Source: a virus
Length of the DNA: 32,496 nucleotides
Virus record (IMG/VR): IMGVR_UViG_3300003937_000218
Coordinates: 1 to 32,496 of that record
Reading direction: 5' to 3' (one strand)
Positions 4,933 through 32,496 of this stretch are shown here, piece by piece (within the stretch, counting starts at the first letter, position 1; each line of letters starts with the position of its first letter). The position numbers and the translations under genes are program-made. The notes under the pieces were generated by a model, which searched no databases, was not told the DNA's origin, and saw only the letters and a program-made list of their open reading frames with translations.

Positions 4933-5273
4933 TGAAAATATTAGTATTTCTTTTAGCAATGTTTTATGCTACAACAATACAAGCATTAGAATTATTAATG
5001 GCACACAATCCTAAATGTCACATTTGTAATAAATTCATGGATGAGGTTGCTATTGATTATGATAACAAAGAATTACCTTTGGTTATTATTAATCTATATA
5101 ATCAGCCTGAATGGTTTAAAGAAGCGTATGCTCAAAACAGAATTAAACCTATTAGAGGAACACCAACATTTATAATATGGAATGGTAGAAAAGAATTAGT
5201 TAGACTTGTAGGTTATAGTAATAAAGAAAGATTTTATAGGAGAGTAAAGGATATATTTATAAATGAGAAATAG
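4932..5273 (+). CDS. Secreted thioredoxin-like protein (CHIC active site)
   Basis: A signal peptide is visible at residues 1-18 (short basic start, hydrophobic core, cleavage near IQA-LE). The mature protein begins with a thioredoxin-fold strand, then C29-H-I-C32 as redox motif, and has the cis-proline segment GTPTF (Pro78) about 46 residues later. The length (113) fits a minimal periplasmic thioredoxin of the DsbE/SoxW type. It probably reduces or exchanges disulfides in the periplasm; the substrate is not evident, and the Cys-containing 90-aa protein encoded upstream is one candidate. The start overlaps the previous stop (TAATG), and the 3' end overlaps the SGNH gene by 11 bases. Confidence 0.75.
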   Translation: MKILVFLLAMFYATTIQALELLMAHNPKCHICNKFMDEVAIDYDNKELPLVIINLYNQPEWFKEAYAQNRIKPIRGTPTFIIWNGRKELVRLVGYSNKERFYRRVKDIFINEK

Positions 5274-6246: not shown

Positions 6247-6653
6247 AAGTAGGATTTACGTGTAGTGCTTTTGATTTGTTACATGCTGGTCATGTACAGA
6301 TGTTAAAAGACGCTAAAGAAGAATGCGATTACTTGATTGTTGGATTACAAACTGATCCAACTATAGATAGACCAAAAGAAAAGAAAAAACCAATACAAAC
6401 ATTGGTAGAGAGAAGTATACAACTTAATGCTATAAAATATGTAGATGAAGTTATACCATACGAAACAGAAAAAGATTTAGAAGATATATTCCAAATGTAT
6501 AATATATCAGTTAGAATTATAGGTGAAGAATATCAAGGTAAGAATTTTACTGGTAAAGAGATATGTGTTAAGAAACACATAAAGATTGTTTACAATAAAA
6601 GAGAACATAGGTTCTCCACCACTGATTTAAGAAAACGTATTATAGATAGTTAA
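6243..6653 (+). CDS. TagD-like cytidylyltransferase (nucleotidyltransferase)
   Basis: The protein shows the hallmarks of the small HxGH nucleotidyltransferases: GFTCSAFDLLHAGHVQML with HAGH at 14-17, and HRFSTTDLRKRI (122-133) corresponding to the RxxxISTT signature of glycerol-3-phosphate cytidylyltransferase. The length of 136 is normal for TagD. It would couple CTP to a phosphorylated polyol or a similar phosphate to give a CDP-activated donor. It overlaps the SGNH gene by four bases and is the last gene of the plus-strand run. An activated donor would fit the glycosyltransferase-like and epimerase genes elsewhere in the window. The exact substrate cannot be read from the sequence. Confidence 0.82.
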   Translation: MKVGFTCSAFDLLHAGHVQMLKDAKEECDYLIVGLQTDPTIDRPKEKKKPIQTLVERSIQLNAIKYVDEVIPYETEKDLEDIFQMYNISVRIIGEEYQGKNFTGKEICVKKHIKIVYNKREHRFSTTDLRKRIIDS

Positions 6654-8435: not shown

Positions 8436-8443
8436 TATAAATA
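8436..8443 (+). promoter_or_regulatory. T4-type late promoter box (TATAAATA)
   Basis: An exact TATAAATA is separated by only five bases from the gp25 ATG at 8449. By T4 geometry the transcript would begin on the A of that ATG, making a leaderless message. It is the presumed driver of the gp25-gp6-gp7 block. Confidence 0.6.
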
Positions 8444-13325: not shown

Positions 13326-13341
13326 ATATAGGATATAAATA
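13321..13341 (+). promoter_or_regulatory. Double T4-type late promoter (two TATAAATA boxes)
   Basis: Two exact TATAAATA boxes lie in tandem (13321-13328, which contains the preceding gene's stop, and 13334-13341), 13 bases apart start to start. The second is nine bases before the ATG at 13351 and would give a leader of about four bases; the first would give about 17. This is the only doubled box in the window and implies strong expression of the fibre-like gene. Confidence 0.6.
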
Positions 13342-14296: not shown

Positions 14297-14304
14297 TATA
14301 AATA
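14297..14304 (+). promoter_or_regulatory. T4-type late promoter box (TATAAATA)
   Basis: An exact TATAAATA lies 12 bases before the gp8 ATG at 14317. The predicted leader is about seven bases. A possible weak ribosome site (AGGAATAA) lies between box and start. Confidence 0.6.
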
Positions 14305-18700: not shown

Positions 18701-21700
18701 GATAGTTATTCAGGCGCTGTTGATTATGCAGATATTCCTTCTCATACTTCGGATACAACTGGAGACACTTATGAGTTAAGAGATTGTTTAGATTTCAGAC
18801 CAAGAGTTGATGACGAGGCTAGAATTAATAGAGGATACCAGGACCGAGATTATAACGGTACAGGTGCTTCAACTGTAGATGTTGCTAAATTTGGTTCTGA
18901 TATATCTTCAGATTTAGAATATTACTTATCAAGAATAGATAAAATTTTTGTAGATAAAGATGGTAAGTTTCAAGTAGCTAGAGGTGCTAGTTCATTAATT
19001 CCACAAGCGCCTAAAAATTTAGATGGTGCAATGCATTTATACACTTTAGATATTCCTGCTTATACTTTAACTCCAGAAGATATTGATATTACTAAAGTAG
19101 ATAATAAGAGATATACAATGAGAGACATTGGTAGATTAGAAAATAGACTTGAAAATACAGAATACTATACTCAATTATCTCTTTTAGAAATGCAAGCAGC
19201 TAATTTACAAATACAAGACGCAGATGGATTTGATAGATTTAAAAATGGATTTTTAGTAGATAACTTTACAGGTCATAGTGTTGGTGACGCAGGAAATTTA
19301 GATTACAAAGTATCTATGGATATGGCAAAGGGTGAAATGAGACCTATGTTCCATGAGGATGCCGTACAGTTAATAGAAGCTGATGATGACGGTACTTCAA
19401 TAACTGCTTTAGATAGAACAGACGCTAAGTATGCAAAAACAGGTGATTGTATGACTTTACCTTACACTGAAACAACTTTAATAGATCAACCTTTTGCAAG
19501 TAAATTTGTTAACGTAAACCCATTTGACGTTTTCTCATGGGCAGGTAATATTCAATTAACTCCACCAAGTGATGAATGGAAAGAAACTGAAAGAATGCCA
19601 GAATTGGTAATTAATAGAACAGGTAGTTTTGATACGTTAGTACAAAGTTTAGGTAATCCAAATTTAACAAGTGTAGCAATAGGTACTGTATGGAATGATT
19701 GGCAAGAGTTCTGGTCAGGAACACCACAAGAATTATCTAGAAGTAATGTAGGTAATATTAGACGTGGTAGACGAGTAATGCAACGTACAGCAATTACTGA
19801 AAGAGGTCAATTATCAGCAACAAGAACAGGTATAAGATCAAGAATAGTACCACAAGTAGTAAGAACATCAATAGGCGATAGAGTTGTTAGTGTTGGTTTT
19901 GTTCCATTTATAAGAAGTAGAACATTAACCTTTATAGCAACTAGAATGAAACCTGAAACAAGAGTTTATCCTTTCTTTGATAACATTGACGTAGCAAGTT
20001 ATATTACACCAAACGGTGGTTCGTTAGGTGGCAATTTGGTTACAAATATTAATGGAATGGTTACAGGAACATTTTCAATACCTGATCCAAAAGTGAATAG
20101 TAATCCAAGATGGAGAACAGGTCAAAGAGTATTCAGATTAACAAGTTCAGTTACAAACAATTTAAGTACGGCAGTTCAAACTTCAGCAGAGGCTGATTAT
20201 GTTGCTAAAGGTGCTTTAGATACAGTACAAGAAACAATTATTTCTACAAGAGAAGCTCAAACTGTTAGAGAAAGTACTGTTGAAACAGTTAGTAGAGGAA
20301 CACAAACAAGAACAAGAATTACCGAACAACAAATAGGTTGGCATGACCCATTATCACAAACATTTATGATTGATGACGCAGGTGGTGTATTTGCAACTTC
20401 AGTAGATTTATATTTTAGTTCAAAAGATAGTAATATTCCGGTAACAGTACAAATTAGAGAAGTAGTAAACGGATATCCTGGAAAGAGAATACTTCCTTTC
20501 AGTGAAAAAACTTTAAATCCAAATTCAGTAAATATAAGTACAGACGCAACAACGGCTACAACATTTACTTTTGACTCACCAGTTTACTTACAAGAAAATA
20601 CAGAATACTGTTTTGTTGTTATGGCAATGACCAACAATTACAATTGTTATGTTGGTAGATTAGGTGAAAAAGTAATAAATTCAGATAGAACAATTTCGCA
20701 ACAGCCTTATGCTGGTGTTCTATTCAAATCACAAAATGGTTCAACTTGGACGGCTGAACAAAACGAGGACATTAAGTTTAAAATAAAGAGAGCAGAATTT
20801 GAAAACGTAACAGGTACGGTTACACTATGTAATGACGTATTACCTACAAGAACATTAAAAACAAATGCAATTAGAACAACTAATACATCTGGTGTAATTA
20901 GAATTTCACATCCTAATCACGGTATGCATGGTACATCAAACAACGTTACAATCGCAGGTGTTCCATCAGCAACTTACAATGGCATTGTCCATTCAGATAT
21001 TAATGGAACATATACAAGTATTTCTAATGTAACTTTAGATAGTTATGATATTACTACTTCAGGAACAGCAACAGCGACAGGAGATATAGGGGGATCTGCT
21101 ATCACTGCTACACAAAATAGAGCGTATGATGTACTAAATTTAAATTTAGCTACAGCAACAGTTCCAGGAACAAATATAACATATGCAATTAGACCTACAA
21201 CAGGAAGATCAATTCATGGTAATGAGTCAGAGTTTAGTTTAACATCATCAGCTAATGCAATATCAGCTATTGCAGGAGATAATATTTGGTTTAATGCACC
21301 TAATATGGTTGCAAGTGATATAAACCAAACTAATGAAATGTCAGGTAATAAATCTTTATTCGTTAACTTAACGTTTACAACATCAAATACTAAACTATCT
21401 CCAGTGCTAGATATGGCAAGAGTTAGTGCATATACAATTCAGAATAGATTAAATTCAGCAACTAGCTTTAATACACCAAATTATGTAGCAGATACGGAAG
21501 CTAGTGGTACATCATCAGCAGGAGTTTATGTTACTAAACCAATTGTTTTAGAAAACTTATCAACTGCTTTAGATATTAGAATGACTTCAAACGTTAGAGC
21601 AACTTCTAGTGTCCTCGTTTATTATAGATTATCTTCTTCGGAAGAAGCAAGAAAAATTGACGATATAGGTTGGACAGCATTTAATGATACAGGTTTAGAA

Positions 21701-21871
21701 GATACAACTGTTACACCTGCTGAAGATGATGATACGTTTAGAGAATACAAATATAGTGCAAGTGGTTTAAATGAGTTCACTACATTCCAATTAAAAGTTG
21801 TTATGAAAGGTACTAACTCATCATACCCACCTGTAATGAAAGATTTAAGAGGTATTGCATTGGCAGTATAA
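15797..21871 (+). CDS. Giant tail/baseplate protein with DUF4815 N-terminus (gp10 position)
   Basis: The first ~100 residues carry the DUF4815 pattern: SPYYDDFTETKKFHRVLYRP, GRELTQSQSILQNQIERLSD, and GAMVIPGDISYD. The middle contains several E.ITGGTSGAKG-type β-modules (near residues 480 and 590) and many Gly/Ser/Thr-rich stretches. Around residues 1510-1650 there is a jelly-roll-like region beginning QTFMIDDAGGVFATSVDLYF, followed by NTEYCFVVMA, typical of fibre or receptor-facing parts. At 2024 residues it is the largest gene here. Its position after gp8 corresponds to T4 gp9/gp10, so it probably links the baseplate periphery to fibres. GGGAGAA before the ATG is a good ribosome site. Confidence 0.75.
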   Translation: MPSPTDFNLSPYYDDFTETKKFHRVLYRPAFAVQGRELTQSQSILQNQIERLSDHVFEQGAMVIPGDISYDLMVGSVKLTSFTDSAAVGVVLTDFVGLTLTGVSSGLKARVVKTVATDGTDPNTLLVKYLNSGTNNTSSAFTDGETISVATTLQSTVTTVSAVVNTTADGSMAAVNEGVYYINGFHVQVSKQDLVLEKYSNTPSYRVGLIITESFVTQNDDSTLNDNAQGVSNTNAPGAHRFKIDLTLAKKSLTATDDSNFVELLRLKSGIIQNQVRTTDYAVLEETLARRTFDESGDYSIKDFDLDLREHLVSGDNRGIYTSADGGLETKIAAGLAPGKAYVKGYEISTIGTRFADVDKARDFDTQNNSNTRFDVGNYVYVNNVYGSPDIGFVSGDVEAFKKVGLYNTATSARGTENTGSGSNIPIIGRAKSRGFEYASGTATNNIFSSSSLTSAVFKHYLFDIVMMTHLNCPKNQAFTTGEEITGGTSGAKGTFESISTNNQHSITAATAANPVVITSTNTLKDGQQVTINSVGGMTELNGNTYTVKNPTSSNFELDVNGSGFTSYTSGGTADQSVVILSAVNGTFTAGEIITGGISSNTATIQADARGFKGVTSYDFTSTKQIGMAGTPVFTADTLIDSTYGESLQITGTLSVANSSNAITGFGTKFNTELRVGDSITLTTDAGTSLTRIIEAIISDTSLEISSAVGGSDVSTKSNANRNRATFKDSDKNISLFKLPYENVKTLKTTSNSGASDTNFKVRRHFTATLGSNGDATLSAGTNEVFPSMGEYDFSVSIMSTGSGGTGATGDFLSLTGNNHEGDVIFSLTGSPVGKSIILDFGANYAGHKIKVLATIVRSVVEEKTKTLVTGFTRNHTSLADIKKQGGMRLNKCDIYKLNYVKMATAFGLYSQSGEIDITDRFTLDNGQRDNFYDIGRITLNTGAVDPTGSIQISVDYFSHGSGDVFTVDSYSGAVDYADIPSHTSDTTGDTYELRDCLDFRPRVDDEARINRGYQDRDYNGTGASTVDVAKFGSDISSDLEYYLSRIDKIFVDKDGKFQVARGASSLIPQAPKNLDGAMHLYTLDIPAYTLTPEDIDITKVDNKRYTMRDIGRLENRLENTEYYTQLSLLEMQAANLQIQDADGFDRFKNGFLVDNFTGHSVGDAGNLDYKVSMDMAKGEMRPMFHEDAVQLIEADDDGTSITALDRTDAKYAKTGDCMTLPYTETTLIDQPFASKFVNVNPFDVFSWAGNIQLTPPSDEWKETERMPELVINRTGSFDTLVQSLGNPNLTSVAIGTVWNDWQEFWSGTPQELSRSNVGNIRRGRRVMQRTAITERGQLSATRTGIRSRIVPQVVRTSIGDRVVSVGFVPFIRSRTLTFIATRMKPETRVYPFFDNIDVASYITPNGGSLGGNLVTNINGMVTGTFSIPDPKVNSNPRWRTGQRVFRLTSSVTNNLSTAVQTSAEADYVAKGALDTVQETIISTREAQTVRESTVETVSRGTQTRTRITEQQIGWHDPLSQTFMIDDAGGVFATSVDLYFSSKDSNIPVTVQIREVVNGYPGKRILPFSEKTLNPNSVNISTDATTATTFTFDSPVYLQENTEYCFVVMAMTNNYNCYVGRLGEKVINSDRTISQQPYAGVLFKSQNGSTWTAEQNEDIKFKIKRAEFENVTGTVTLCNDVLPTRTLKTNAIRTTNTSGVIRISHPNHGMHGTSNNVTIAGVPSATYNGIVHSDINGTYTSISNVTLDSYDITTSGTATATGDIGGSAITATQNRAYDVLNLNLATATVPGTNITYAIRPTTGRSIHGNESEFSLTSSANAISAIAGDNIWFNAPNMVASDINQTNEMSGNKSLFVNLTFTTSNTKLSPVLDMARVSAYTIQNRLNSATSFNTPNYVADTEASGTSSAGVYVTKPIVLENLSTALDIRMTSNVRATSSVLVYYRLSSSEEARKIDDIGWTAFNDTGLEDTTVTPAEDDDTFREYKYSASGLNEFTTFQLKVVMKGTNSSYPPVMKDLRGIALAV

Positions 21872-22872: not shown

Positions 22873-23607
22873 ATGAATATATTATTAACAGGCAGTGAAG
22901 GATTTATAGGAAAACACCTTCATAAGCATTTAGAAAATAACAATCACAAAGTAATCCCAATAGACAAATTATCAGGTAACGATTTAATAAATTGTAACCT
23001 TAAATACGATGTAGGTTTGGTCATACACTTGGCTGGCCTTTCAGGAGTTAGAGATAGTTTAGATAGACCTACAGAATACTGGAAAGAAAATGTAATTGCA
23101 GGTCAAAGACTATTTGATTATTTTCCAAATACAAAAATATTATATGCAAGTTCTTCAACGGCCATAGAGCCTTGGCGTAACCCTTATGCTATGAGTAAAT
23201 ATTCTTTGGAACAAATTGCACCAGAAAATAGTATCGGTATGAGATTTACAACTGTATATGGACCAGGCGCTAGGGAACATATGTTGATACCAAGAATATT
23301 AAGAAACGATGTACCATTTGTACATACTAATCATACAAGAGATTTTATACATGTAGATGATATAATATCTGCTATTGACACTTTAATGAAAAGTGAATTT
23401 ACAGGTGTAACAGATATAGGTATAGGAAAATCTTATAGTTTGCTGGAGATGATAACGTATTTTGGAATTGATTTTAAAGAAAAAAGGGTAGGTAATGAAT
23501 TTGAAAGAGAAGATAACACAGCAGATACAGAAGTTTTAAATAAACTAAACTGGTCGGTTAAAACTGACCTATATAATTATATAAAGGAAAATAAAAATGT
23601 CAATTGA
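22873..23607 (+). CDS. NAD-dependent sugar epimerase/dehydratase (extended SDR)
   Basis: The sequence carries the Rossmann NAD motif TGSEGFIG (residues 6-13), the catalytic SSST (93-96), YAMSK (Tyr105, Lys109) and TTVYGPG (127-132), all typical of extended short-chain dehydrogenases acting on nucleotide sugars (GalE/RmlB/WcaG type). At 244 residues it is shorter than the usual 300-340; the C-terminal substrate domain appears reduced but the end is in frame and conserved-looking. It would make or convert an NDP-sugar, matching the glycosyltransferase-like genes on the other strand. It overlaps the following gene by 11 bases. The exact sugar cannot be told from sequence. Confidence 0.85.
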   Translation: MNILLTGSEGFIGKHLHKHLENNNHKVIPIDKLSGNDLINCNLKYDVGLVIHLAGLSGVRDSLDRPTEYWKENVIAGQRLFDYFPNTKILYASSSTAIEPWRNPYAMSKYSLEQIAPENSIGMRFTTVYGPGAREHMLIPRILRNDVPFVHTNHTRDFIHVDDIISAIDTLMKSEFTGVTDIGIGKSYSLLEMITYFGIDFKEKRVGNEFEREDNTADTEVLNKLNWSVKTDLYNYIKENKNVN

Positions 23608-24118
23608 AGTAGTTAAAAGAGAACATAAAGAAGTAGGATTTGGTGATGGAATGTTAAAATATTTTGTTGACGCTAGATTTACTAATAGTAAAAGAGATTG
23701 GATTGAAGTATTAACTAATGAAAATAAAGAGAGTCTTACATCTACTCACGTTGAGTTTGATGAAAAACATCCATACTTTATATCATTAATGAAAGTTACC
23801 AATATAGAAAAAATACATGAGAGTACATATCGTCACAATGAAGAACAAAAAAAAGAATTTGAACAGGTAGCTTTAGCTATTGCTAAAAGAGAGGGTCTTG
23901 TACAAACAGACGATACTTCTCCAACTAGAGTTCTTGATTTTATATTTAATCCTGAAGAAGCAACCGAAGATGAAATGTTTGCTTTAAAAATAGCCTTATT
24001 TGAAATAGATAAGATAAAAGATTCTAAAAATCTTGATGGTAAAAAAGCATTAAGAAAATGTAAAACTAGAATTGACTTGTTAAAGAGTGCTCTTAATCTT
24101 TATAGTGAGGCAGAATAA
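23597..24118 (+). CDS. Unknown 173-aa protein
   Basis: No named family is recognised. The N-terminal ~90 residues are mixed α/β, with a conserved-looking start (EVVKREHKEVGFGDGMLKYF). The C-terminal half is acidic and then helical (ATEDEMFALKIALFEIDKIK). AAAGGAAA upstream of the ATG, overlapping the epimerase gene, is the ribosome site. It is the last plus-strand gene and its end overlaps the end of the minus-strand operon by 26 bases, so the two transcripts converge. Confidence 0.65.
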   Translation: MSIEVVKREHKEVGFGDGMLKYFVDARFTNSKRDWIEVLTNENKESLTSTHVEFDEKHPYFISLMKVTNIEKIHESTYRHNEEQKKEFEQVALAIAKREGLVQTDDTSPTRVLDFIFNPEEATEDEMFALKIALFEIDKIKDSKNLDGKKALRKCKTRIDLLKSALNLYSEAE

Positions 24119-24677
24119 AATCTGACCACCAACCTTGCCAACCTGGTTCTAATAGGTGGTTCATTTGACCTAAAGTACAAATACTAAATTCTTTTGGTGG
24201 TATTTCATACATATAGTTTTTAATAGAAGGACAAACTTTATCATAGTTTTTATAATTTATTTCTCTATAATAAAACTCATCACTACCTTTATTGTATTTT
24301 TCTAGGTACATTTTTTCGTTAGACTTAAATTTATCCCATATATGAGAAACATCTCCTGTCCAAGAGACAATAGTTGAGTTTAATGGAGTATGAGCTTCTT
24401 CTCTCCACCATAAATCATTTAATAAAGTAAAGTCTTTTCTGAATAAATCTGGTAACTCTTTCCATATAATAACGTCTAAATCAAAGTATAAGTTCTCCCC
24501 ATCCCGGAACTTATCGTACATTTGGAATTTATTATACCAATTACCGTAAATATCATTTTCAATAACTTCAAAACTATCATATGATATACCAGAGTGAAAG
24601 TCTATCATATATTTTAAGTTATCAACATGCCATTGTGTAAACTTATTACCGAATCTACAAGCTATTATTCTCCGCAT
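24093..24677 (-). CDS. Glycosyltransferase-like protein with DxD motif
   Basis: A predicted strand ending in YFDLDVIIW (DxD at residues 66-68) follows a ~60-residue N-terminal α/β region, as in GT-A fold sugar transferases (GT8/GT32-like), which bind NDP-sugar through Mn2+. Later Trp-rich segments (NDLWWREE, GWQGWWSD) could contact a sugar. At 194 residues it is short. It is the last gene of the minus-strand operon and overlaps the stop of the kinase-fusion gene by 13 bases. The substrate is unknown; a truncated or accessory transferase is possible. Confidence 0.55.
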   Translation of the reverse strand: MRRIIACRFGNKFTQWHVDNLKYMIDFHSGISYDSFEVIENDIYGNWYNKFQMYDKFRDGENLYFDLDVIIWKELPDLFRKDFTLLNDLWWREEAHTPLNSTIVSWTGDVSHIWDKFKSNEKMYLEKYNKGSDEFYYREINYKNYDKVCPSIKNYMYEIPPKEFSICTLGQMNHLLEPGWQGWWSDFILPHYKD

Positions 24678-25843
24678 TTTAAAACACCATCAATCATATA
24701 TTTTATATCTTTCATTTCAGATACTAAATCAATATTAGCCCATTGTCCAGATTTTTTAATTTGTTTATATAAACTAGCAAATGAGTTCATATATCTTTCT
24801 GGTCCAACACCTGACACTTCATAATCGCCACACATAGATAATACTATCTGTACATAATGTCCTTGTTCAGCCCAACGTAAAGCAGAGTGATCTAATGTTT
24901 TAAAAATACAACCTGGTAAGTTTTGACCTGCCACAATTACATTTTTAATTCCTATTCCTAGACCTTCAAATTCTTTTTTAATATATTTAATGGAGTTAAA
25001 TGGATTTGCTTTATCAAATTTCCAATCGCTGGTGTCTGGTAACTCTAGCCAATTATATCTGTCTTTAATTTCATACTTTAGTTCATTCATTTTAGTCATA
25101 TAACCATATTCATTTAAATTTTCAGATACTATACATAAGTCTGGTAATTTTGTTTCAAATTTTGTTTCAAACAACAATTTTTTTAACTTACTAAAACGCA
25201 AATTATTTAAAGCCGTATCACCTGATAATAGACTATTGCCTTCAAAATCAATTAAATTCAATAGCGTACAGGTTTTAAGTTGTTTTGGAGTGTACATTCT
25301 TTTAGTGTTTCTTATCTTATTTATTATCTCTTTAGCTATGTTCTCCGGCGTATCGCCTTCAGCCTTAATATATAAGTAACCAGGTCTACCTTTGAAATAT
25401 TCTATTACAGGATCAACTTGTTTTTTATATTTAGCAATTGCTTTTTCATATAAATCAATAGATGTAGAATCTGAATCTTCATCTATTCTGCCTGTATATT
25501 CGGGTGGATGCCATTTATCTTTGCCTCTAGCAATTAATCTTTTGATAAGTTCTTCCTGACTCACATCTAAATATATCACATAGTCAGAATACTTTTGATG
25601 AAAAAGTTGATTATACGGTCTTTCAGCCTCTTTGATTTCTAATTTGTCTATATCAATACCTTTCTTTTCCAAGTCTTTAACTTGTTTCATATTACTTGGA
25701 TATCCATCCAAGATCAATTGCTGGTAAAGATAATTATCAGGTACCTCTTTAGCGTGGATATGTGATAACTTAAATTCTTTTAATAATATTTTTGCAAGAG
25801 TTGATTTTCCACTACCTGGATGACCAATTAAAACTATTCTCAT
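24665..25843 (-). CDS. P-loop kinase fused to a possible cysteine-hydrolase domain
   Basis: The N-terminal half (1-~180) is an adenylate-kinase-like P-loop enzyme: Walker A GHPGSGKS (7-14), a DYVIYLD strand before an SQEELIKRL helix, and a lid-like region with LIARGKDKWHPP. The C-terminal half (~190-392) has segments that resemble isochorismatase-like cysteine hydrolases: LLNLIDFEGNSL near its start and NVIVAGQNLPGCIFKT (301-316) with Cys312 at the nucleophile position, then a helix and GHYVQIV. The second assignment is tentative. The fusion suggests phosphorylation and hydrolysis of related small molecules. It overlaps the MOSC gene by four bases. Confidence 0.6.
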   Translation of the reverse strand: MRIVLIGHPGSGKSTLAKILLKEFKLSHIHAKEVPDNYLYQQLILDGYPSNMKQVKDLEKKGIDIDKLEIKEAERPYNQLFHQKYSDYVIYLDVSQEELIKRLIARGKDKWHPPEYTGRIDEDSDSTSIDLYEKAIAKYKKQVDPVIEYFKGRPGYLYIKAEGDTPENIAKEIINKIRNTKRMYTPKQLKTCTLLNLIDFEGNSLLSGDTALNNLRFSKLKKLLFETKFETKLPDLCIVSENLNEYGYMTKMNELKYEIKDRYNWLELPDTSDWKFDKANPFNSIKYIKKEFEGLGIGIKNVIVAGQNLPGCIFKTLDHSALRWAEQGHYVQIVLSMCGDYEVSGVGPERYMNSFASLYKQIKKSGQWANIDLVSEMKDIKYMIDGVLKCGE

Positions 25844-26307
25844 TTCTCAATATCTATTACATCACCTATACTTATTTGTCCTGCTTTTAAAACTTTGGCA
25901 CACCATCTGCCATATGTTGGATAAATTTTTTCATTTACTATATCCCAGTCACCATTTAAAAATGACTTACTAATGCCTTCGCAAGGTGGTGCTGTAAAAG
26001 TTAATTGAAGTATTGTTTTTCCTACTTTAACTATATCTCCTTTTTTAAAATTATCATATGATAATCCTTCTCTCCAAAAATCTATAGTTATATTTTCTCC
26101 GGCTGTTCCAGGAGCAATAGGGTGTCCGTCTGCCTGTAATTTGATAATTTTTTGATTATCATATAATAAAACAGCACGATTAAGTCCTGTATGAGAATTT
26201 TGTCTATCTTCTTTAAGACCTGATTTTTCTATATTAGCTGTAGAGACTTGACGCTTTGGTACGCCACCATCAGGATTGACATTTATATATCGTATTGTAG
26301 CAACCAT
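25840..26307 (-). CDS. MOSC-domain protein
   Basis: The protein reads through the MOSC family signature: GVPKRQVSTANI, GLKEDRQNSHTGLNRAVLLY, then GHPIAPGTAGENITI, GDIVKVG, LTFTAPPCEGI with the conserved Cys109, GRWCAKVLKAGQISIGDVI. At 155 residues it is a stand-alone MOSC of the YiiM/YuaD size. MOSC domains are linked to molybdenum-cofactor sulfuration and sulfur carriage; some stand-alone members reduce N-hydroxylated bases. Phage copies are uncommon as far as I know. The gene lies two bases after the 2OG-oxygenase stop and overlaps the kinase-fusion start by four. Its partner or substrate here is unknown. Confidence 0.82.
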   Translation of the reverse strand: MVATIRYINVNPDGGVPKRQVSTANIEKSGLKEDRQNSHTGLNRAVLLYDNQKIIKLQADGHPIAPGTAGENITIDFWREGLSYDNFKKGDIVKVGKTILQLTFTAPPCEGISKSFLNGDWDIVNEKIYPTYGRWCAKVLKAGQISIGDVIDIEK

Positions 26308-26309
26308 AA

Positions 26310-26759
26310 TTATATTTTATTTCCTACTAAATGTATTCTATCTTCTCTTGAAGCATTAACAGCAGTATGTTTTTTAGTAGTATCAATTATATACCAATTA
26401 CCATCTGCTGGATACCTTTTAATTTTATCATCAATAACAAAGAAACAATTATTATTTGTAATTAAAGGTATATGGAATCTTTTTTCATAATCTTGATGGT
26501 AAGTATAACAAGTTTTACTTTTTAAATTCATCAATCTAACTCTATATAGATTTTGTTCTTTAATAATAGAATTGATATAAGGTAAATCAAATAGTAGATG
26601 TATAAATTCTTTTTCATCCTCTGAATTACGATTATCGTAAAAATGTTTACCAGCACCAATAAAAGGATCTTTAATAGTTTCTGTACCTTGTAAACATATT
26701 TGTTCGTCCCATTTAGGTAAAGTTTCTATTTCTTTTAATATTTTATTCAAATTTAGCAT
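26310..26759 (-). CDS. 2OG-Fe(II) oxygenase, Asp/Asn β-hydroxylase-like
   Basis: The C-terminal half carries a cupin-type core: YHQDYEKRFHIPLITN with H88-x-D90 as iron ligands, CFFVIDD, then DTTKKHTAVNASREDRIHL with His131 as third ligand and Arg141 as possible 2-oxoglutarate contact. This is the layout of the aspartyl/asparaginyl β-hydroxylase family and its bacterial relatives. It would hydroxylate a protein side chain or a small molecule with O2 and 2-oxoglutarate. It overlaps the SDR gene by 17 bases. The N-terminal ~60 residues are unrecognised. The family is known in marine phages but the substrate here cannot be told. Confidence 0.72.
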   Translation of the reverse strand: MLNLNKILKEIETLPKWDEQICLQGTETIKDPFIGAGKHFYDNRNSEDEKEFIHLLFDLPYINSIIKEQNLYRVRLMNLKSKTCYTYHQDYEKRFHIPLITNNNCFFVIDDKIKRYPADGNWYIIDTTKKHTAVNASREDRIHLVGNKI

Positions 26760-27270
26760 GAGCTACACCCTTAATTTTGTCATCATCTGGACCAAAATTA
26801 GATTTAATATTTTTTTCAGGTGGACAAACTGTTATTTCTTTAATTCTATTTGGTTGTTGTAAAACCCAATGAATAATACCACAACAATACTCAACACTCA
26901 TTTTAGGAACATCTTTATCTTGTACTCTTTCTGTATCTATATAACCAAAATTTATAATTGTTGTATCAATTCCATCATTAAATAATTGGTGATTAGCTTC
27001 TCTTAAAGCTTTTTTCTCAACACCATACCGATACAGATACGTATAATCACTAGCAAGAGAACCAATATTAATTATTTTTTTCTTTAATTTACCAGCTTTA
27101 TATAATAATTCAACTTGTTCAAATTTATCGTGTTTACAATTTATAAAAACATCACAATCAATTAAAGAACCAACTACCATGTTGCCAGTTGGATATACCA
27201 CTATTTTATCATATTTTTCTAGTAAAGCTTTTCCTAAACCACGTCTTGTTCCTGTTATATAAAATTTCAT
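26743..27270 (-). CDS. Short-chain dehydrogenase/reductase
   Basis: The protein begins almost directly with KFYITGTRRGLG, the TGxxxGxG cofactor motif of classical SDRs. CDVFINCKHD replaces the usual NNAG strand, and NIGSLASDYTYLYRYGVEKK provides a Ser and the YxxxK catalytic pair. At 175 residues it is short. I choose the ATG at 27270, which overlaps the ATP-grasp stop as ATGA and fits the family start; an ATG at 27288 would add six residues. It is probably an NAD(P)-dependent oxidoreductase acting on an alcohol or ketone in the pathway built by this operon. Confidence 0.7.
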   Translation of the reverse strand: MKFYITGTRRGLGKALLEKYDKIVVYPTGNMVVGSLIDCDVFINCKHDKFEQVELLYKAGKLKKKIINIGSLASDYTYLYRYGVEKKALREANHQLFNDGIDTTIINFGYIDTERVQDKDVPKMSVEYCCGIIHWVLQQPNRIKEITVCPPEKNIKSNFGPDDDKIKGVAHAKFE

Positions 27271-28337
27271 TTTTCTTTTGTATTCCATGTTTTTATTTTT
27301 TCTGAATATGGAAGTTTTACGAGTTTTAATCCATCATAATCACCCCAACCAAATTCAGTATTAGTACGGATATTATCAAGATATACCGATGTTATTTGTT
27401 GATAATGTTCTATTTCATCTTGTACTTTATTTGTAAACAAATCTACTATTGTATTAAATTTACCTATATCCCAATCATATGATCCTATTTCAAGTTGACC
27501 AAAGGGTCTAGCATTGTATTCTTGAAAATGTAGTTTACCGTTTTTTTCTTTAGAAAATTCTGTTGCCACAATTCTATTCTTTACTGTTATATTTTCTTTT
27601 AACTTTTTATAGAAATTTTTTATTATATCTATTTCCTCTTTAGGAAAATTTACGTGTGGAAATTGATACATAAATGGAATATTTTGAGCCATTTTAATGC
27701 CATCTCCTGGCACACCTATAGTATGATTATATAAATGATACTCGCCCTCATTATCACATAGAACCTGTGAGATAATTGAATAATCGTAATTTATATATCT
27801 TTGTATAAAATCATTTTTCCTTGCTTGATAGTGTTTTTTCAGACATGTTTTATAACCATGTCCACCACCTGATTTTCCTGAATCTAATTTTACTATAATT
27901 TTATCATCAATACTTCCTTCATCTAAAGTAGGTATACCCATTAATTTACATACTCGGTCTTGTTCTCTTTTAGATGTAAAAAACTTTAAAGCTCTTTTAT
28001 CAAATTGTGTTTTAGTATTATACCATAAACAAAGTTCATATTCTACTTTAGTTATTGGTTCTTCGTCTCTACAATTCATAATATATTCAGGTACAAAATC
28101 TAAATTTTTTATATAATATTGTGGATCATATAATTTTTCTTTTGGAAGATATGTAGCATATGGCCTTAATTTATTGCTTTCATTAAAAGTATGTTTACTA
28201 GCTAGATCAAACATCTTAAAATTAATGCCATACTTTAAACAAAGCTCTACTAAAGTTTCCCATTTTTTACGAGCATTTAAAATAAGTATATTTTTAGGTA
28301 AAAGTTTTCTATCTATATTGTCTGCAAATTTTAACAT
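27267..28337 (-). CDS. ATP-grasp ligase
   Basis: The domain order is that of an ATP-grasp enzyme: an N-terminal Rossmann-like part (ILILNARKKWETLVELCLKY), then FFTSKREQDRVCKLMGIPT (~119-137, the lysine and GIPT entry), IIVKLDSGKSGGGHGY (147-162, the Gly-rich ATP loop), FIQRYINYDYSI and the Mg site HFQEYNARP (260-268, Glu263, Asn265, Arg267). Such enzymes join a carboxylate to an amine or thiol via acyl-phosphate. It has 356 residues and lies eight bases after the PP-loop gene. With the neighbours it suggests assembly of an amide- or peptide-like bond. The substrate is not visible. Confidence 0.82.
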   Translation of the reverse strand: MLKFADNIDRKLLPKNILILNARKKWETLVELCLKYGINFKMFDLASKHTFNESNKLRPYATYLPKEKLYDPQYYIKNLDFVPEYIMNCRDEEPITKVEYELCLWYNTKTQFDKRALKFFTSKREQDRVCKLMGIPTLDEGSIDDKIIVKLDSGKSGGGHGYKTCLKKHYQARKNDFIQRYINYDYSIISQVLCDNEGEYHLYNHTIGVPGDGIKMAQNIPFMYQFPHVNFPKEEIDIIKNFYKKLKENITVKNRIVATEFSKEKNGKLHFQEYNARPFGQLEIGSYDWDIGKFNTIVDLFTNKVQDEIEHYQQITSVYLDNIRTNTEFGWGDYDGLKLVKLPYSEKIKTWNTKEK

Positions 28338-28345
28338 AATGTAGT

Positions 28346-29101
28346 CTAATCCTCAAATGCCCAAGCCCTCTCATTACACCAAAAACATTTACCACATACT
28401 TCAAGTGTTTTAGACCAAGCACATGATTTAGTTTCTGGAAATAAAGTCTCCATTAAATTATTTTCTTTAAAGACACCTGCTACATATTTTTTATCAACTT
28501 TTAGATATGGTTGATATGTTTTACCACCAGCTGGAATTATATCCAACATTTTTAAATCACTGTCGCCTGGATCCCTTTTTCTTTCTGCTACATCATAAAA
28601 TCCTCTTTCTTTTTGTATATCTACTGGAGGATTAGTAGTCATGGCCATAACAACAGGCGCTGAATATCTTGTTGACATAATTGATCTTACGTTTCTGTTT
28701 TGTAGAGCTTTTGAACAACCGTTTAATGATCCCCACATAGAAACTTTTTTACCATTTACTGTAGGACTATTTTTTGGATCAGCCATTGCTTCTTTGGCCT
28801 TTTTTTGCCAACTAGGATCACTTGTTCTTACAGTAAAGATTTCTAAATCATTAACTGTAGGAAATTTGTTTTGTAAAAATTTATGTACTTCTATAGCACG
28901 TTCAGTATCTATAGTGCAGTCTTCATCTTTTGAATGAAAAGGATACATTTGAATATTTGGAAAATTAGTTCCAATTAAATATGTAAGTGATGATGAGTCA
29001 CAACCTCCTGATAATGAGATTACAACCTTTTCTGGGGGTCCATCTGGAAAAATGTCTTCTCCAAATAAGTCTATTGTCTGTTCGCCGTATGTTAGTTTCA
29101 T
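28346..29101 (-). CDS. QueC-like PP-loop ATPase with four-Cys zinc site
   Basis: The N-terminus contains the PP-loop SGGCDSSS (residues 31-38) of N-type ATP pyrophosphatases. The C-terminus has C227-x8-C236-G-x-C239-x2-C242 followed by NERAWAF, the zinc-site layout of QueC (7-cyano-7-deazaguanine synthase). AAGGAGAT is a strong ribosome site. QueC converts a carboxylate to a nitrile using ATP and ammonia; related PP-loop enzymes make amides or thiolate bases. No QueD, QueE or FolE homologue is evident in the window, so the true substrate may differ. The gene sits between the radical SAM and ATP-grasp genes of the operon. Confidence 0.68.
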   Translation of the reverse strand: MKLTYGEQTIDLFGEDIFPDGPPEKVVISLSGGCDSSSLTYLIGTNFPNIQMYPFHSKDEDCTIDTERAIEVHKFLQNKFPTVNDLEIFTVRTSDPSWQKKAKEAMADPKNSPTVNGKKVSMWGSLNGCSKALQNRNVRSIMSTRYSAPVVMAMTTNPPVDIQKERGFYDVAERKRDPGDSDLKMLDIIPAGGKTYQPYLKVDKKYVAGVFKENNLMETLFPETKSCAWSKTLEVCGKCFWCNERAWAFED

Positions 29102-29122
29102 AATATCTCCTTCAAGTATTAT

Positions 29123-30409
29123 TTAATGTCTTGTCTCACGTTGTTTCGCCTTTATATAGTGTTCTTCTAGTTCTGGATGTAGTGCAAATAAATCATGTCC
29201 TTTTTCTTTACTAAAGCCATTTTCATCTAAATCTTGACAATACTCAATAGTCTTAATAAATTCTGCTTCATCTTGTTCCTTTTCTAATGATCTTATAATG
29301 TTAGGATAGTCTTTATAAAAAGGTATTAATTTTTGTTTTATATCATATGGTAAATTTTTAACTTGTAAGATTTTTGGATATTCTATAATATAGAACGTAT
29401 GTGCTATACCCATATCTTTTAATAATGCAATTAGTTTATAATTTTCTAATACACTTAAAAAAGATATTACAGAGTGAACATTAACTCTTGCATTTCTTCT
29501 TGCTCTCATTGTTTTCATATTATCTAAAAGTGAAGGCCAATCTGATTTCTTTCTTATATAGTCATTATATTTACCATAACTATCTATAGATATTTTCATT
29601 ACAAATTCTTTGAAGTGGTCAAAGTAATCTCTAAAGTTGTAACCGTCCATATCAAATACTGATAAGTTTGTTTTATAGATTAAGTCTATACCTTTTGAGT
29701 AACCTGTTTTTACTAATTTGTCTAATAGTTTATAATGATTTACCATAACTAAAGGTTCGCCACCAATTAGTTTGATTGATCTAGTATATTTTGCTACAGA
29801 GGCAATATCATCTAGATATTCTATATCATCATGTTTTAAAGTATTCATTCTATCACCGTCTTTAGGGTCTAAATCAGGATCATATACTTTCTTTAATTTT
29901 TTTAAAGATATAGTTCTAGTGTTAGCACTTCTTGGTGTACACATATAACAATCTAGATTACAAGCATTACCAAACATCTTCATTTTAATGTCTAATATTC
30001 TTTCATCTAAATCTAACTTACCGTCATCTTGAAATTTTTGAACGGCTCTTAATAACTCTGGTACTTTACTATCAAATGTACCTGCTAATATTTGTTCAAC
30101 ATATTTCTGTCTATCTGAACGACCATATTTTGATTCTTGTTTCCAACAACCTGTACAATGATGTTTAAAGAATTTACCATTATAATCCTCTTTTAACATT
30201 TCTTTTCTTAAAGTGTTTTGATAGTCAGAAGTATACCATTCTCTTATTGTAGTATCTTCCATATTATGGCCAGTTCTTGCTAGTGCGTCATAGCAAGGTG
30301 CAAATCTACCACTTAAACTAGAGAATACATGTGTGAAAGGTAAAGGACAAAACCATAGTTTCTTATCCTTTAACTTTTGTTCAAATTCTTTTTTTTGTTT
30401 CTCGTCCAT
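29123..30409 (-). CDS. Twitch-type radical SAM enzyme
   Basis: The SAM/[4Fe-4S] motif is C150-NLD-C154-YM-C157 in GNACNLDCYMC, with KLIGGEPLV downstream as the GGEP motif. An N-terminal region has FCPLPFTHVF, APCYDA and CTGCW (Cys21, 39, 85, 88), the layout of an auxiliary-cluster (twitch/SPASM-like) segment placed before the core, as in the twitch-domain enzymes of marine phages. Length 428. It would carry out a radical reaction on a sugar, peptide or nucleoside. Its start follows the glycosyltransferase stop directly, with a GATAAATA string five bases before the ATG and no good ribosome site. Confidence 0.8.
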   Translation of the reverse strand: MDEKQKKEFEQKLKDKKLWFCPLPFTHVFSSLSGRFAPCYDALARTGHNMEDTTIREWYTSDYQNTLRKEMLKEDYNGKFFKHHCTGCWKQESKYGRSDRQKYVEQILAGTFDSKVPELLRAVQKFQDDGKLDLDERILDIKMKMFGNACNLDCYMCTPRSANTRTISLKKLKKVYDPDLDPKDGDRMNTLKHDDIEYLDDIASVAKYTRSIKLIGGEPLVMVNHYKLLDKLVKTGYSKGIDLIYKTNLSVFDMDGYNFRDYFDHFKEFVMKISIDSYGKYNDYIRKKSDWPSLLDNMKTMRARRNARVNVHSVISFLSVLENYKLIALLKDMGIAHTFYIIEYPKILQVKNLPYDIKQKLIPFYKDYPNIIRSLEKEQDEAEFIKTIEYCQDLDENGFSKEKGHDLFALHPELEEHYIKAKQRETRH

Positions 30410-31189
30410 TTACCTATTTATCCACTTACTATACAAAGGGCTGTCTTTTAGTTCGTGAATAACACGATTAGGACCTGTATAGTGTACAATTTTTAACTTT
30501 TCATTTGGTTCATCTAATAACATATAATCTGTATTAAATTTTTTTGCATACATCTTATTTAAATTTACCATATCTTTTCCATTTTCTGTATACTTACCTA
30601 ACCATTCTTGTGGTGTATTAGTAAGTTTACTTTTCTTTTCAAATATTTTCCAATCAACATAATTTTGTTCGCCATAATATTTAAAGTGTACTTTACCTAC
30701 ATTGTAATAGTGCAATTGCCAATATTCAGGATTAAGTGCAAAATCATCCCATATATGCTTGAATTGGCCAGATTTAAATTTATAAAAACCACCATTCAAA
30801 GGTAATATGTTATTATCTTTTAATCTGTTAGTATGTAATCTTTCATTCCAAAATACACCATATGATACTAACTCATCATCGCCAACTGGATGTCCTATAA
30901 GATCATCTACATTACCTACAATAACTTGATCTATATCCATTATAACAATCTCATCATTTGGTTGTTGACCACCAAATAAAGGACTAAAAAATTTTAATTT
31001 ATGCCAGTGCTTTACAATAGTACTATGATGATTATATGGTAATACTACATCGGCCTTTACGTTAGGGTCATCACTTAAACAAATAAACTGAAAAGGTATT
31101 GTACTGTTTCTTTTCAGTCCATCATATAAGTTAGCAACATAATCTGGTGTATACATGCCTTTGAAGTATACAGTACATATTTTAATCAT
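30410..31189 (-). CDS. Glycosyltransferase-like protein (GT8-like, DxD)
   Basis: The protein begins with a strand-helix unit (IKICTVYFKG, VANLYDGLKR), has EIVIMDIDQVIVGN with DxD at about residues 85-87, and near its end KLKIVHYTGPNR, which resembles the HxxGxxKP metal/UDP motif of GT8 enzymes. GEQNYVDW in the middle is the usual E/D-Q-xx-(L/V) position. Length (259) is normal for the family. The start is the ATG at 31189 (GGAGA eight bases upstream), not the TTG three bases before. It overlaps the upstream glycosyltransferase gene by eight bases. It is predicted to move a sugar from an NDP donor. Confidence 0.72.
   Translation of the reverse strand: MIKICTVYFKGMYTPDYVANLYDGLKRNSTIPFQFICLSDDPNVKADVVLPYNHHSTIVKHWHKLKFFSPLFGGQQPNDEIVIMDIDQVIVGNVDDLIGHPVGDDELVSYGVFWNERLHTNRLKDNNILPLNGGFYKFKSGQFKHIWDDFALNPEYWQLHYYNVGKVHFKYYGEQNYVDWKIFEKKSKLTNTPQEWLGKYTENGKDMVNLNKMYAKKFNTDYMLLDEPNEKLKIVHYTGPNRVIHELKDSPLYSKWINR
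30415..30422 (-). promoter_or_regulatory. Possible late-type box (GATAAATA), minus strand
   Basis: GATAAATA on the minus strand lies five bases before the radical SAM ATG, the same spacing as the exact box before gp25. It falls within the last codons of the preceding glycosyltransferase gene, so it could be chance coding sequence. It is recorded because it would allow separate expression inside the operon. Confidence 0.25.
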
Positions 31190-32060
31190 CAATGTTTCTC
31201 CAAATTATATCAAACCTTTTATTAATAGCATGTATAAGTTTGGCAGTTTTAGGAATAAAAAGATTTGTATCAAAGAAATAGTGCCAATCTTTATCTAACC
31301 ATTGTACTGGTACTTTCTTTTCTTTTAGTTTCACAGCAAATATTGTTTCATTATCATAACCAAAGAAATCAGCAATCTTTTTAGGAAATATATCATATAC
31401 ACCTATAAGACTTGTCATTTCATTAAGAGTTTCTTTAAAATTTGTAAAATAATCTAATTGATCTAAATGTTCTTTATCAATACCTATTATACCTGTATTA
31501 ATAACATCATTTTCAGGACTTAAACCTTTTTCTATTAACATAGCTTGAGCATTATAAAATTTTGCGTTTGGACTTCTTATTGTTTGTGTTCTTTCTGTAA
31601 TCTTTTGAATAGGAGATACTCTTTCATTATTATTTAAAACACAAACACCTTTTGATAAATCCCAATGGTCAAAAAAGTTTTCGTCTGTATTAGGAACAAC
31701 ATCAAAGTCTAGGTATAATACTTCATCATATTTTTTACTATACTCATATAGTAAATGTATTTTAAAAAAGTTAACTATATTATAACTTGTAATTTCTGGA
31801 TAGTTTTTTTGAAAGTGATCGTAATATTCTTTATATTCTTCATGCATAAAAAAGTCTACGCCTATTTTATCAGCATATTCTTTTTTACAATCTATTAGTC
31901 TTTGGTAATGAGTTTCAAATTCATTTTTAGTATTAATATTTGTAAACTCTGTATCTGGTTTCTTTATATGTTTATCAAATAAGTCTAACTCCTCTTTAGG
32001 TATATTAATATACAAGGAGAATATAACTCTTTTTTTAGGTTCATTATCAAATAATTTCAT
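31182..32060 (-). CDS. Glycosyltransferase-like protein (DxD)
   Basis: After an N-terminal Rossmann-like part, YDEVLYLDFDVVPNT carries DxD at residues 118-120, set on a strand as in GT-A sugar transferases that handle polysaccharide subunits. Segments such as VINTGIIGID and AKLIHAINKR fit the fold's later strands. Length 292. The start overlaps the stop of the upstream gene by one base, and the end overlaps the next glycosyltransferase gene by eight. It may be a capsule- or LPS-type transferase, as seen in marine phages; acceptor and donor are unknown. Confidence 0.65.
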   Translation of the reverse strand: MKLFDNEPKKRVIFSLYINIPKEELDLFDKHIKKPDTEFTNINTKNEFETHYQRLIDCKKEYADKIGVDFFMHEEYKEYYDHFQKNYPEITSYNIVNFFKIHLLYEYSKKYDEVLYLDFDVVPNTDENFFDHWDLSKGVCVLNNNERVSPIQKITERTQTIRSPNAKFYNAQAMLIEKGLSPENDVINTGIIGIDKEHLDQLDYFTNFKETLNEMTSLIGVYDIFPKKIADFFGYDNETIFAVKLKEKKVPVQWLDKDWHYFFDTNLFIPKTAKLIHAINKRFDIIWRNIDD

Positions 32061-32496
32061 TATTTTATTTTCTTAGCTTCTTCCCATGACATAATAGGAT
32101 CAGGTTTTCCTTCCATTTTTCCTACTATAATAAATCTTGTACCTCTATAATCTGTTACCTTTTCCTCTGATAATACAGTTGCATTACTAGGCAATTGTTT
32201 CTTAAAATTTTCTATTGTATCTACACAATTAATATGGCCTTCAATATCAAACATGTTGTTTGATGTAAAAGCAAAGTGTGTAGGTGAAGTTCTACCCCAC
32301 CAAGGATTTTTCATTATTGGTGCCGGTCCCCATTCTTTCATAGGTTTCATATGTTCGCAAGATGTATTAATAAACAAATCAACACCATCATATTGATCTC
32401 TATACTTTTCAAATACATCGCCTGTTATCCAATCAATATTCCATTCAGGAAATATTCTATACTTTGATCTACTAATTACTTGAGCGTCTGTATCAA
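32060..32496 (-). CDS. Probable class I methyltransferase, C-terminal part
   Basis: The frame is open to the right edge (an in-frame TTG at 32375-32377 is not a true start), so 144 residues of the C-terminal part are visible. WNIDWITGDVFEKY followed by DLFINTSCEHM looks like motifs around the acidic loop and the D-x-x-x-(N/S) strand of Rossmann methyltransferases. Later parts contain WWGRTSP and FIIVGKM strands. It is the first visible gene of the minus-strand operon and its stop overlaps the next start by one base. Assignment as a SAM methyltransferase is likely but rests on partial sequence. Confidence 0.45.
   Translation of the reverse strand, partial: DTDAQVISRSKYRIFPEWNIDWITGDVFEKYRDQYDGVDLFINTSCEHMKPMKEWGPAPIMKNPWWGRTSPTHFAFTSNNMFDIEGHINCVDTIENFKKQLPSNATVLSEEKVTDYRGTRFIIVGKMEGKPDPIMSWEEAKKIK

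Follow-up and report, generated by a model that had tools for sequence, protein, structure and literature searches.

The 32,496 bases of the IMG/VR virus record IMGVR_UViG_3300003937_000218, hereafter the window (the whole stretch analysed, which is the entire record and allows no extension from the record itself), carry at their right end eleven minus-strand genes, lettered A to K. We propose that they form the downstream part of a long operon for glycan tailoring, expressed late, which lies in the host recognition cluster of a T4-like phage of SAR11 (the most abundant bacteria of the ocean), and that the favoured acceptor of the glycan is the virion, a reading to which we assign a probability of about 0.42. 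The operon consists of a constant frame of genes and an interchangeable box set within it. The island, its glycosyltransferases and its radical S-adenosylmethionine (SAM) cassettes are already in print; the constant frame with its interchangeable box, the late-type head and the pair of a QueC-like and a twitch radical SAM enzyme are new here and were not found in searches of open-licence papers.

A constant frame with an interchangeable box

The operon occupies positions 24093-32494, of which 99.6% is coding, and its eleven open reading frames (ORFs) lie where a preliminary description of the window had placed them. As that description also held, it runs past the right edge: A is cut at the window end and is complete (220 amino acids) in a near-identical contig of 64,405 bases (G001), where more genes lie upstream. 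Gaps are indeed at most 21 bases, and the largest overlap is 22 bases (G with F, using the longest starts) rather than the 17 first given. Profile searches upheld the domain labels of D, E, H, I and the kinase part of J, and gave weaker matches for those of A, B, C, F, G and K. The genes are as follows, with identities to the cultured relative Pelagibacter phage Mosig EXVC030M (Mosig).

32060..32494, minus strand: A, methyltransferase-like, 5′ end beyond the window; weak match of the full copy to Spermine_synth (E 0.0014); 68% to Mosig_00090
31182..32060, minus strand: B, GT8-like glycosyltransferase; Pfam GT8 E 2.2e-4, 21.4 bits, below the cut-off of 24.3; 52% to Mosig
30410..31192, minus strand: C, putative glycosyltransferase; matches only PHROG 1962 'glycosyltransferase' (E 7.2e-12); 53% to Mosig_00092
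29123..30409, minus strand: D, N-terminal-twitch radical SAM enzyme; NCBIfam NF033640, 292.7 bits against a cut-off of 170
28346..29101, minus strand: E, QueC-like PP-loop ATPase; Pfam QueC (PF06508), 26.6 bits against a cut-off of 22.0; SGGxDS and CxxCxxC metal-site motifs
27267..28337, minus strand: F, presumed ATP-grasp-like ligase, accessory; ATP-grasp_4 E 0.045, not significant
26743..27288, minus strand: G, SDR-like dehydrogenase, rare accessory; weak NCBIfam SDR match (E 5.6e-4)
26310..26759, minus strand: H, Asp/Arg-hydroxylase-like 2-oxoglutarate-Fe(II) oxygenase, rare accessory at this place; PF05118, 42.0 bits against a cut-off of 22.6
25840..26307, minus strand: I, MOSC-domain protein, rare accessory; PF03473, 43.8 bits against a cut-off of 22.7
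24665..25843, minus strand: J, fusion of an adenylate-kinase-like part (residues 1-182; ADK, 48.6 bits against a cut-off of 26.8) and an isochorismatase-fold domain (183-392)
24093..24677, minus strand: K, putative glycosyltransferase, last gene of the operon; matches only PHROG 1962 (E 5.5e-5); 65% to Mosig_00094

In G001 the stretch upstream of A comprises, in order, a candidate glycosyltransferase without a Pfam match, two split pairs of radical SAM/SPASM-like ORFs, a DegT aminotransferase (257 bits), an SGNH-like protein (weak match), two proteins that resemble nitroreductases but score below the Pfam cut-off, a further QueC-like protein (31% identical to E), RibB (273 bits), a radical SAM protein of small size, a SufT-like iron-sulphur assembly protein (48 bits) and a carbamoyltransferase (237 bits for its C-terminal part), after which come A to K. 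One radical SAM member alone of the split pairs was profile-scanned (26.8 bits, below the cut-off), and the SPASM label of the pairs is taken from a homologue at window positions 4534-4932 (20.3 bits against a cut-off of 21.5).

Searches with D and E first brought up 61 loci (50 contigs), a set that over-counts these two genes; the search was therefore repeated with K as the only seed. This yielded 75 loci, near-identical phages included, whose 10 kb flank cuts the counts of far-upstream genes (DegT, nitroreductases, RibB, E paralogues). Gene labels in the K-seeded set, and in the set of operon heads discussed below, are best BLAST matches at 1e-5 to references that include paralogues. In the contigs found with D and E, A was followed by B in 29 of 31 cases where a following gene exists, B by C in 32 of 36, C by D or a paralogue in 36 of 36 and D by E in 39 of 46. 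The 24 such contigs that span D to the convergent gene beyond K contained E (24), K (21), the second half of J on the same strand (15), I (4) and F-G-H (2). Among the 59 K-seeded loci with at least five same-strand genes before K, B was present in 59, A in 55, the carbamoyltransferase in 50 and C in 49; the other counts were 35 for a nitroreductase, 32 for DegT (limited by the flank), 25 for D, 20 for J, 16 for E, 4 for I and 2 each for F, G and H. Because D is missing from 34 and E from 43 of these 59 loci, the box is not required by the frame. We conclude that DegT, radical SAM, the carbamoyltransferase, A, B, C and K form the frame, that the C-to-K interval and the region further upstream vary, and that D and E are frequent options while F, G, H and I are rare inserts.

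The same genes thus recur in the same order in dozens of contigs, the synteny that the preliminary description had proposed as a check and the opposite of the missing neighbourhood that it had set against itself, and the operon is therefore not due to chance. Its further claim, that all eleven genes together build one product, was not supported: A, B, C and K are constant, D and E optional and F to I rare, and the unit is longer than eleven genes. On these counts we reject the eleven genes as one indivisible pathway.

Mosig carries the corresponding operon (Mosig_00082-00094) at the same place, in the same direction and with divergent late motifs at its head. Its frame identities are 62% for DegT, 70% for radical SAM, 74% for the carbamoyltransferase, and 68%, 52%, 53% and 65% for A, B, C and K, of which B, C and K are annotated there as hypothetical. 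It differs in its box, which has a nitroreductase where the window has D-J, and no match to D or E was found in it at 1e-5. Block exchange is visible in a contig (L008) whose B, C and D are 96-99% identical to those of the window, with A at 57% and E at 74%; another (L036) carries a reduced form in which, over the stretch examined, B, C, K and E are missing. RibB (3,4-dihydroxy-2-butanone 4-phosphate synthase; L066:9698-10330, inside the G001 operon) may provide the nitroreductases with flavin or furnish a four-carbon unit; its frequency does not show in the K-seeded loci, which stop too near K.

Genomic place and late promoter motifs

The gp6-like baseplate wedge protein of the window is 68% identical to that of Mosig and 53% to that of HTVC008M and marks the window as a fragment of a T4-like pelagiphage; from this kinship with pelagiphages, SAR11 is the probable host. 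Beyond the cassette, G001 encodes Mosig-like portal, sheath, terminase and neck proteins, two of which (g7 and g8) are 58% and 73% identical to Mosig neck proteins. Judged by these neighbours, the cassette sits between VrlC and the neck genes, the position of the published pelagimyophage 'host recognition cluster', which is reported to run from VrlC to the neck gene gp14 and to hold glycosyltransferases and radical SAM cassettes (PMC7029224). The phage agrees with that cluster in having a T4-like pelagiphage genome, the VrlC/neck position and variable content with glycosyltransferases.

T4 late promoters have been given as TATAAATA and the cyanophage form as NATAAATA (PMC2984593). Although the window taken whole shows no excess of exact TATAAATA (7 observed, 9.7 expected), the motif is placed between genes in 12 of 15 occurrences in G001, 11 of 14 in G003, 7 of 9 in the first 20 kb of G002, 8 of 12 in the 30-79 kb region of Mosig and 5 of 7 in the window. 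Other 8-mers with the same letters are intergenic in 6-11% of cases, giving p-values from 2e-4 to 7.5e-11 (in G001, 8.8% and p 7.5e-11), the tests of the window and G001 not being independent since the two are nearly the same phage. Over all loci, 13 distinct heads were visible for runs with at least four cassette genes, counted without a shuffled control; the cassette side carried NATAAATA at 11 of these, 7 of them with the exact TATAAATA, and motifs stood back to back on both strands at 10. Genes annotated in Mosig include those for a late sigma factor and for an accessory protein of late transcription. From the motif placement, the head motifs and these Mosig factors, the cassette is most likely transcribed late, together with the virion genes. 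A single transcript is not required, because some motifs also occur inside the cassette. Two minus-strand motifs resembling NATAAATA, at 25318 (about 20 bases before an internal ATG of the second half of J) and at 30415 (5 bases before D), could have arisen by chance.

The boundary and neighbouring genes and the motifs before structural genes of the window are as follows.

15797..21871, plus strand: VrlC homologue, 63% identical over 1462 residues to the compared part of Mosig VrlC; left boundary gene of the host recognition cluster
22873..23607, plus strand: member of the NAD-dependent sugar epimerase/dehydratase family (PF01370, 90.8 bits), 60% to Mosig_00096, adjoining tail genes
23597..24118, plus strand: convergent conserved gene, function not assigned, overlapping the 3′ end of K by 26 bases; 29% to Mosig_00095
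8436..8443, plus strand: late promoter motif before a gp25-like baseplate gene
13321..13341, plus strand: two late promoter motifs before a structural gene
14297..14304, plus strand: T4-type late motif TATAAATA, 13 bases before a structural gene

The convergent gene is the immediate neighbour of K in 61 of the 75 K-seeded loci (one of these ends at K), and the epimerase/dehydratase is a possible supplier of sugar to the operon. A second small set of tailoring-like genes lies among structural genes at 3858-6653 (plus strand) and comprises split radical SAM-like/SPASM-like ORFs, a thioredoxin-like protein with a hydrophobic N-terminus, a cytidylyltransferase and an ORF akin to the G001 SGNH-like protein. 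The division of radical SAM-like and SPASM-like domains between two separate, overlapping ORFs recurs (window 3858-4932 and L066:2913-4957) and is also seen in relatives. An Rfam scan of the window, L065, L066 and L075 (for Mosig, positions 30000-79000 only) gave 0 matches; a glutamine riboswitch has been reported in Mosig (PMC9004378).

Predicted enzymes and selection on their genes

In D, the cysteines C150/C154/C157 (CxxxCxxC) and C21/C39/C85/C88 are invariant across 23 aligned members, and the twitch part weakly matches BtrN (E 0.0049), an enzyme of butirosin synthesis. All 27 E-family members compared retain SGGxDS and CxxCxxC; the zinc motif C(x)8CxxCxxC is exact in E of the window and 7 more of the 27, and in the remaining 19 the first gap before CxxCxxC is longer (13-27). 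The model of E (mean predicted local distance difference test score, pLDDT, 90.5) was closest in VIA-align to Cap9 (Z 14.3, root-mean-square deviation (rmsd) 3.0, 166 residues aligned), followed by QueC (Z 13.8, rmsd 3.4, 178 aligned) and by MesJ/TilS and LarE (13.2). Foldseek placed TtuA sulphur transferases first and QueC seventh. The predicted PP-loop ATPase fold of E is thus firm and its exact subfamily is not, because VIA-align favours Cap9/QueC while Foldseek puts TtuA first. In QueC of B. subtilis, Y129 and D131 bind 7-deazaguanine (PMC13279940), and the QueC family is reported to include protein-modifying members (PMC13329287, PMC13279940). By a simple pattern test, made without residue-level structural alignment, Y-[PA]-D-x-R is absent from 27 of 27 E-family members. 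E shares with QueC, Cap9 and QatC the PP-loop SGGxDS, the CxxCxxC metal site and the fold, and differs from them in that its family shows no such pattern in this test and in being set among sugar genes.

Searches with E gave no match in the phages collection. Of 385 genomes in the same class as a bin labelled Rhodobacteraceae, the bin itself was the sole match, a result from which absence from the host does not follow, as the SAR11 share of the 385 is not known; 4 of 191 genomes in the phylum of G013 matched, G013 and G016 included. Several bacterial contigs carry related genes. D-like, SPASM-type radical SAM-like and E-like genes stand together in L080 (titled Bdellovibrionales) and L083; L083 has a UDP-glucose/GDP-mannose dehydrogenase gene close by, its gene roles beyond Pfam matches being our assumption, assigned by eye. 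In L091 a carbamoyltransferase (52%) and a radical SAM gene lie by the E-like gene. These three contigs and L090 hold many genes of the twitch radical SAM-like, SPASM-type radical SAM-like and QueC-like kinds, in some of them together with small membrane-like proteins that have no Pfam match, and an undescribed bacterial pathway may lie behind them. Two contigs filed under bacterial bins (L076, L078) are probably phage, because both carry homologues of T4-like phage tail genes; a third (L077) is likewise filed under a bacterial bin.

F, found at 17 loci, has K150, G157, G158, E273, N275 and R277 invariant in 13 of 13 members, and we take it to be a putative ATP-grasp enzyme from its ExN and glycine-loop motif, with no significant profile match: 0 of 13 family members match Pfam at E 0.01, and a PDB sequence search with the F alignment found none. 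The K family gave the same outcome (0 of 13 members matching any Pfam family at E 0.01, no match for its alignment in the PDB sequence search). G was seen at 2 loci in viral contigs by a short-peptide pattern search. The J fusion occurs only in the window and the near-identical contig; in the other loci examined, the second half stands alone as a separate gene. The model of that half (mean pLDDT 77.8) had a top VIA row of Z 10.7 (rmsd 4.3, 159 aligned), and nearly all of the 50 VIA rows listed are named as cysteine hydrolases, nicotinamidases, isochorismatases or relatives. With Foldseek by itself nothing matched at E 0.001 or better, and other folds came first. The second half of J is accordingly predicted to fold like isochorismatases. 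Isochorismatase-like cysteine hydrolases use a catalytic Asp-Lys-Cys; here Cys130 is invariant in 13 of 13, Asp17 is replaced by His in 3 of 13, and the Lys is not assigned. A PADLOC scan matched D only to the viperin type (4.9e-6) and the kinase part of J to VakA (1.4e-5) and mad8 (2.6e-4), with none for E at 0.001; we read the D and J matches as general radical SAM and P-loop similarity.

Hydropathy in a 19-residue window reached a maximum of 1.24 in A-K (1.58-1.78 in some upstream G001 ORFs), and among A-K, the genes judged, it revealed no gtrABC-type multi-spanning flippase or membrane glycosyltransferase. Assembly therefore appears to be cytoplasmic, as no strongly hydrophobic stretch occurs in A-K.

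Ratios of nonsynonymous to synonymous substitution rates (dN/dS; Nei-Gojobori, few pairs, at most eight per gene printed for the A-D and K ranges) were 0.06-0.33 for A, 0.17-0.25 for B (rising to 0.38-0.56 in very distant or very close pairs), 0.11-0.23 for C, 0.13-0.19 for D and 0.03-0.17 for K; the frame genes, and D with them, are under purifying selection. The other box genes are less constrained: E gave 0.2-0.35 (0.54 and 0.97 in two very close pairs), G 0.35, F 0.58-0.81, H 0.70 and I 0.82. The second half of J gave 1.37-1.47 against three close relatives and 0.30 against the more distant L009. Between the window (24665-25297) and a close relative (L004:4835-5455), this isochorismatase-like half has 29, 23 and 18 changes at first, second and third codon positions, and 2 of 49 fourfold sites are changed. 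In a neutral simulation (40 replicates per pair, assumed base composition, medians 0.84-1.12), the second half of J (1.28-1.39), H and I lay within the neutral range, and F lay below its lower edge in 2 of 3 pairs and inside in 1. Under neutrality one would expect 17-20 stop mutations in F and about 6 in the J half, whereas the compared copies are all open, although copies broken by stops would be short ORFs and hence under-counted. This fits change of the F and J proteins within an intact reading frame, hence either diversifying selection or weak constraint on a used gene, two explanations that these data do not separate.

Proposed glycan, its acceptor and rival explanations

Starting from the gene order, the frame and box, the predicted folds of E and of the second half of J and the promoter motifs, all of which are observed, we infer an expression time, substrates, a reaction order, a product and an acceptor. 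The frame (DegT, radical SAM, carbamoyltransferase, A, B, C and K) would assemble a carbamoylated, methylated amino-sugar unit in the cytoplasm, and the box between C and K would modify the sugar beyond that. D would oxidise it by a radical route, E and F would use ATP to form amides, G and H would carry out redox steps, and J would contribute phosphoryl and acyl/amide chemistry. The acceptor would be a virion protein such as a tail fibre, and a swap of the box would change the phage's own coat. Three features make us favour the virion: the late-type motifs, the tail genes close to the cassette and the epimerase gene that adjoins those tail genes. The bolder version, in which a SAR11 myophage 'serotype' machine combines a late fixed frame with an exchangeable, fast-changing box and makes an amidated, carbamoylated virion glycan by way of a QueC-like ligase and twitch radical SAM enzymes in a type of sugar chemistry that would be new to description, is less likely.

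Precedents exist for several of these elements. The pelagimyophage host recognition cluster is likewise a hypervariable VrlC-neck region of T4-like SAR11 phages, with glycosyltransferases and radical SAM cassettes that vary between relatives; a constant frame, a gene order, a late promoter pair, QueC-like and carbamoyltransferase genes and an interchangeable box are not described in the available portion of that article (PMC7029224). Lipopolysaccharide clusters of the cyanophages P-SSM2, S-SM2 and S-SSM7 are also large sets of sugar genes in marine T4-like phages, and carbamoyltransferases occur in some cyanophages, but these clusters lie near hli03, phoH and tRNAs, and their function is likewise unproven (PMC3037559). 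Phage glycans on virions are a further likeness: virion proteins of mycobacteriophages are said by Freeman et al. in 2023 to carry glycans, compared with which the operon here has a much larger enzyme set and a glycan that is predicted from genes.

Several points weigh against the proposal of a late virion glycan. The published interpretation is a change of the host O-chain (PMC7029224), and the acceptor and substrates assigned here are predictions. Late expression is a deduction from motifs rather than from transcripts, and it would also agree with a remodelling of the host surface late in infection. Two of the 13 heads (L057, L163) have the motif on neither strand and one (L036) on the cassette side only, on the cassette side 6 of the 13 show no more than the looser NATAAATA or no motif, and the window's own cassette, whose head lies outside the window, contains no exact TATAAATA. 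The glycosyltransferase identity of B, C and K depends on weak matches only, D and E are absent from many loci, as counted above, and the near-neutral divergence of F, H, I and J could mean a weak need for these genes.

The data are compatible with virion and host envelope alike, and the late-type motifs would tilt the choice toward the virion. That the operon modifies the host lipopolysaccharide O-chain during infection and blocks adsorption of competing phages is a serious possibility at less than even odds: it has been argued from GT8 and the rarity of SAR11 restriction systems (PMC7029224), host O-units in the cytoplasm could be within reach of soluble glycosyltransferases, and bacterial D/E-like genes lie near a nucleotide-sugar dehydrogenase gene, but late-type head motifs fit poorly with early exclusion of rivals, and no gtr-type flippase or membrane glycosyltransferase is evident among A-K. 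A free small molecule or cofactor of natural-product type, in place of a glycan, seems improbable. RibB, the nitroreductases, the SufT-like protein, several radical SAM enzymes, the QueC-like and ATP-grasp-like ligases and the weak likeness of the D twitch part to BtrN (with its butirosin role) would suit it, against which stand three glycosyltransferase-like genes in the constant frame, B being present in 59 of 59 loci.

More improbable still is that E and its partners attach a small molecule to protein, as in Cap9-like deazaguanylation, for defence or counter-defence. Cap9 is the best VIA row of E, tied with QueC, but the top Foldseek rows are TtuA, the Y-[PA]-D-x-R pattern and PADLOC matches are missing as stated above, and no 7-deazaguanine gene was recognised among the G001 cassette proteins scanned. 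We give very little weight to an accidental collection or stuffer DNA without joint function. Box genes do differ in presence from locus to locus, the divergence of F, H, I and J is near neutral, and stuffer DNA has been raised for cyanophage lipopolysaccharide genes (PMC3037559); yet the order is fixed over 75 loci, the frame is under purifying selection, and F is open despite the stops predicted. Least probable of all is hypermodification of phage DNA, for which speak the ability of phage glycosyltransferases to act on DNA (PMC7029224) and the work of QueC in 7-deazaguanine synthesis (PMC13329287). Late-type motifs argue against it, as does the whole Mosig annotation, which names a flavin-dependent thymidylate synthase and no hydroxymethylase, although many Mosig genes are hypothetical and this is not decisive. 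On these points DNA modification and accidental collection were set aside as principal explanations.

The late virion-glycan reading can be pursued because a frame with a swappable box is also present in the cultured relative Mosig, which makes the question testable on virions or host cells. If it is true, SAR11 phages of this kind would own a system of coat variation, and the operons would hold a set of unexplored radical SAM and QueC-like enzymes.

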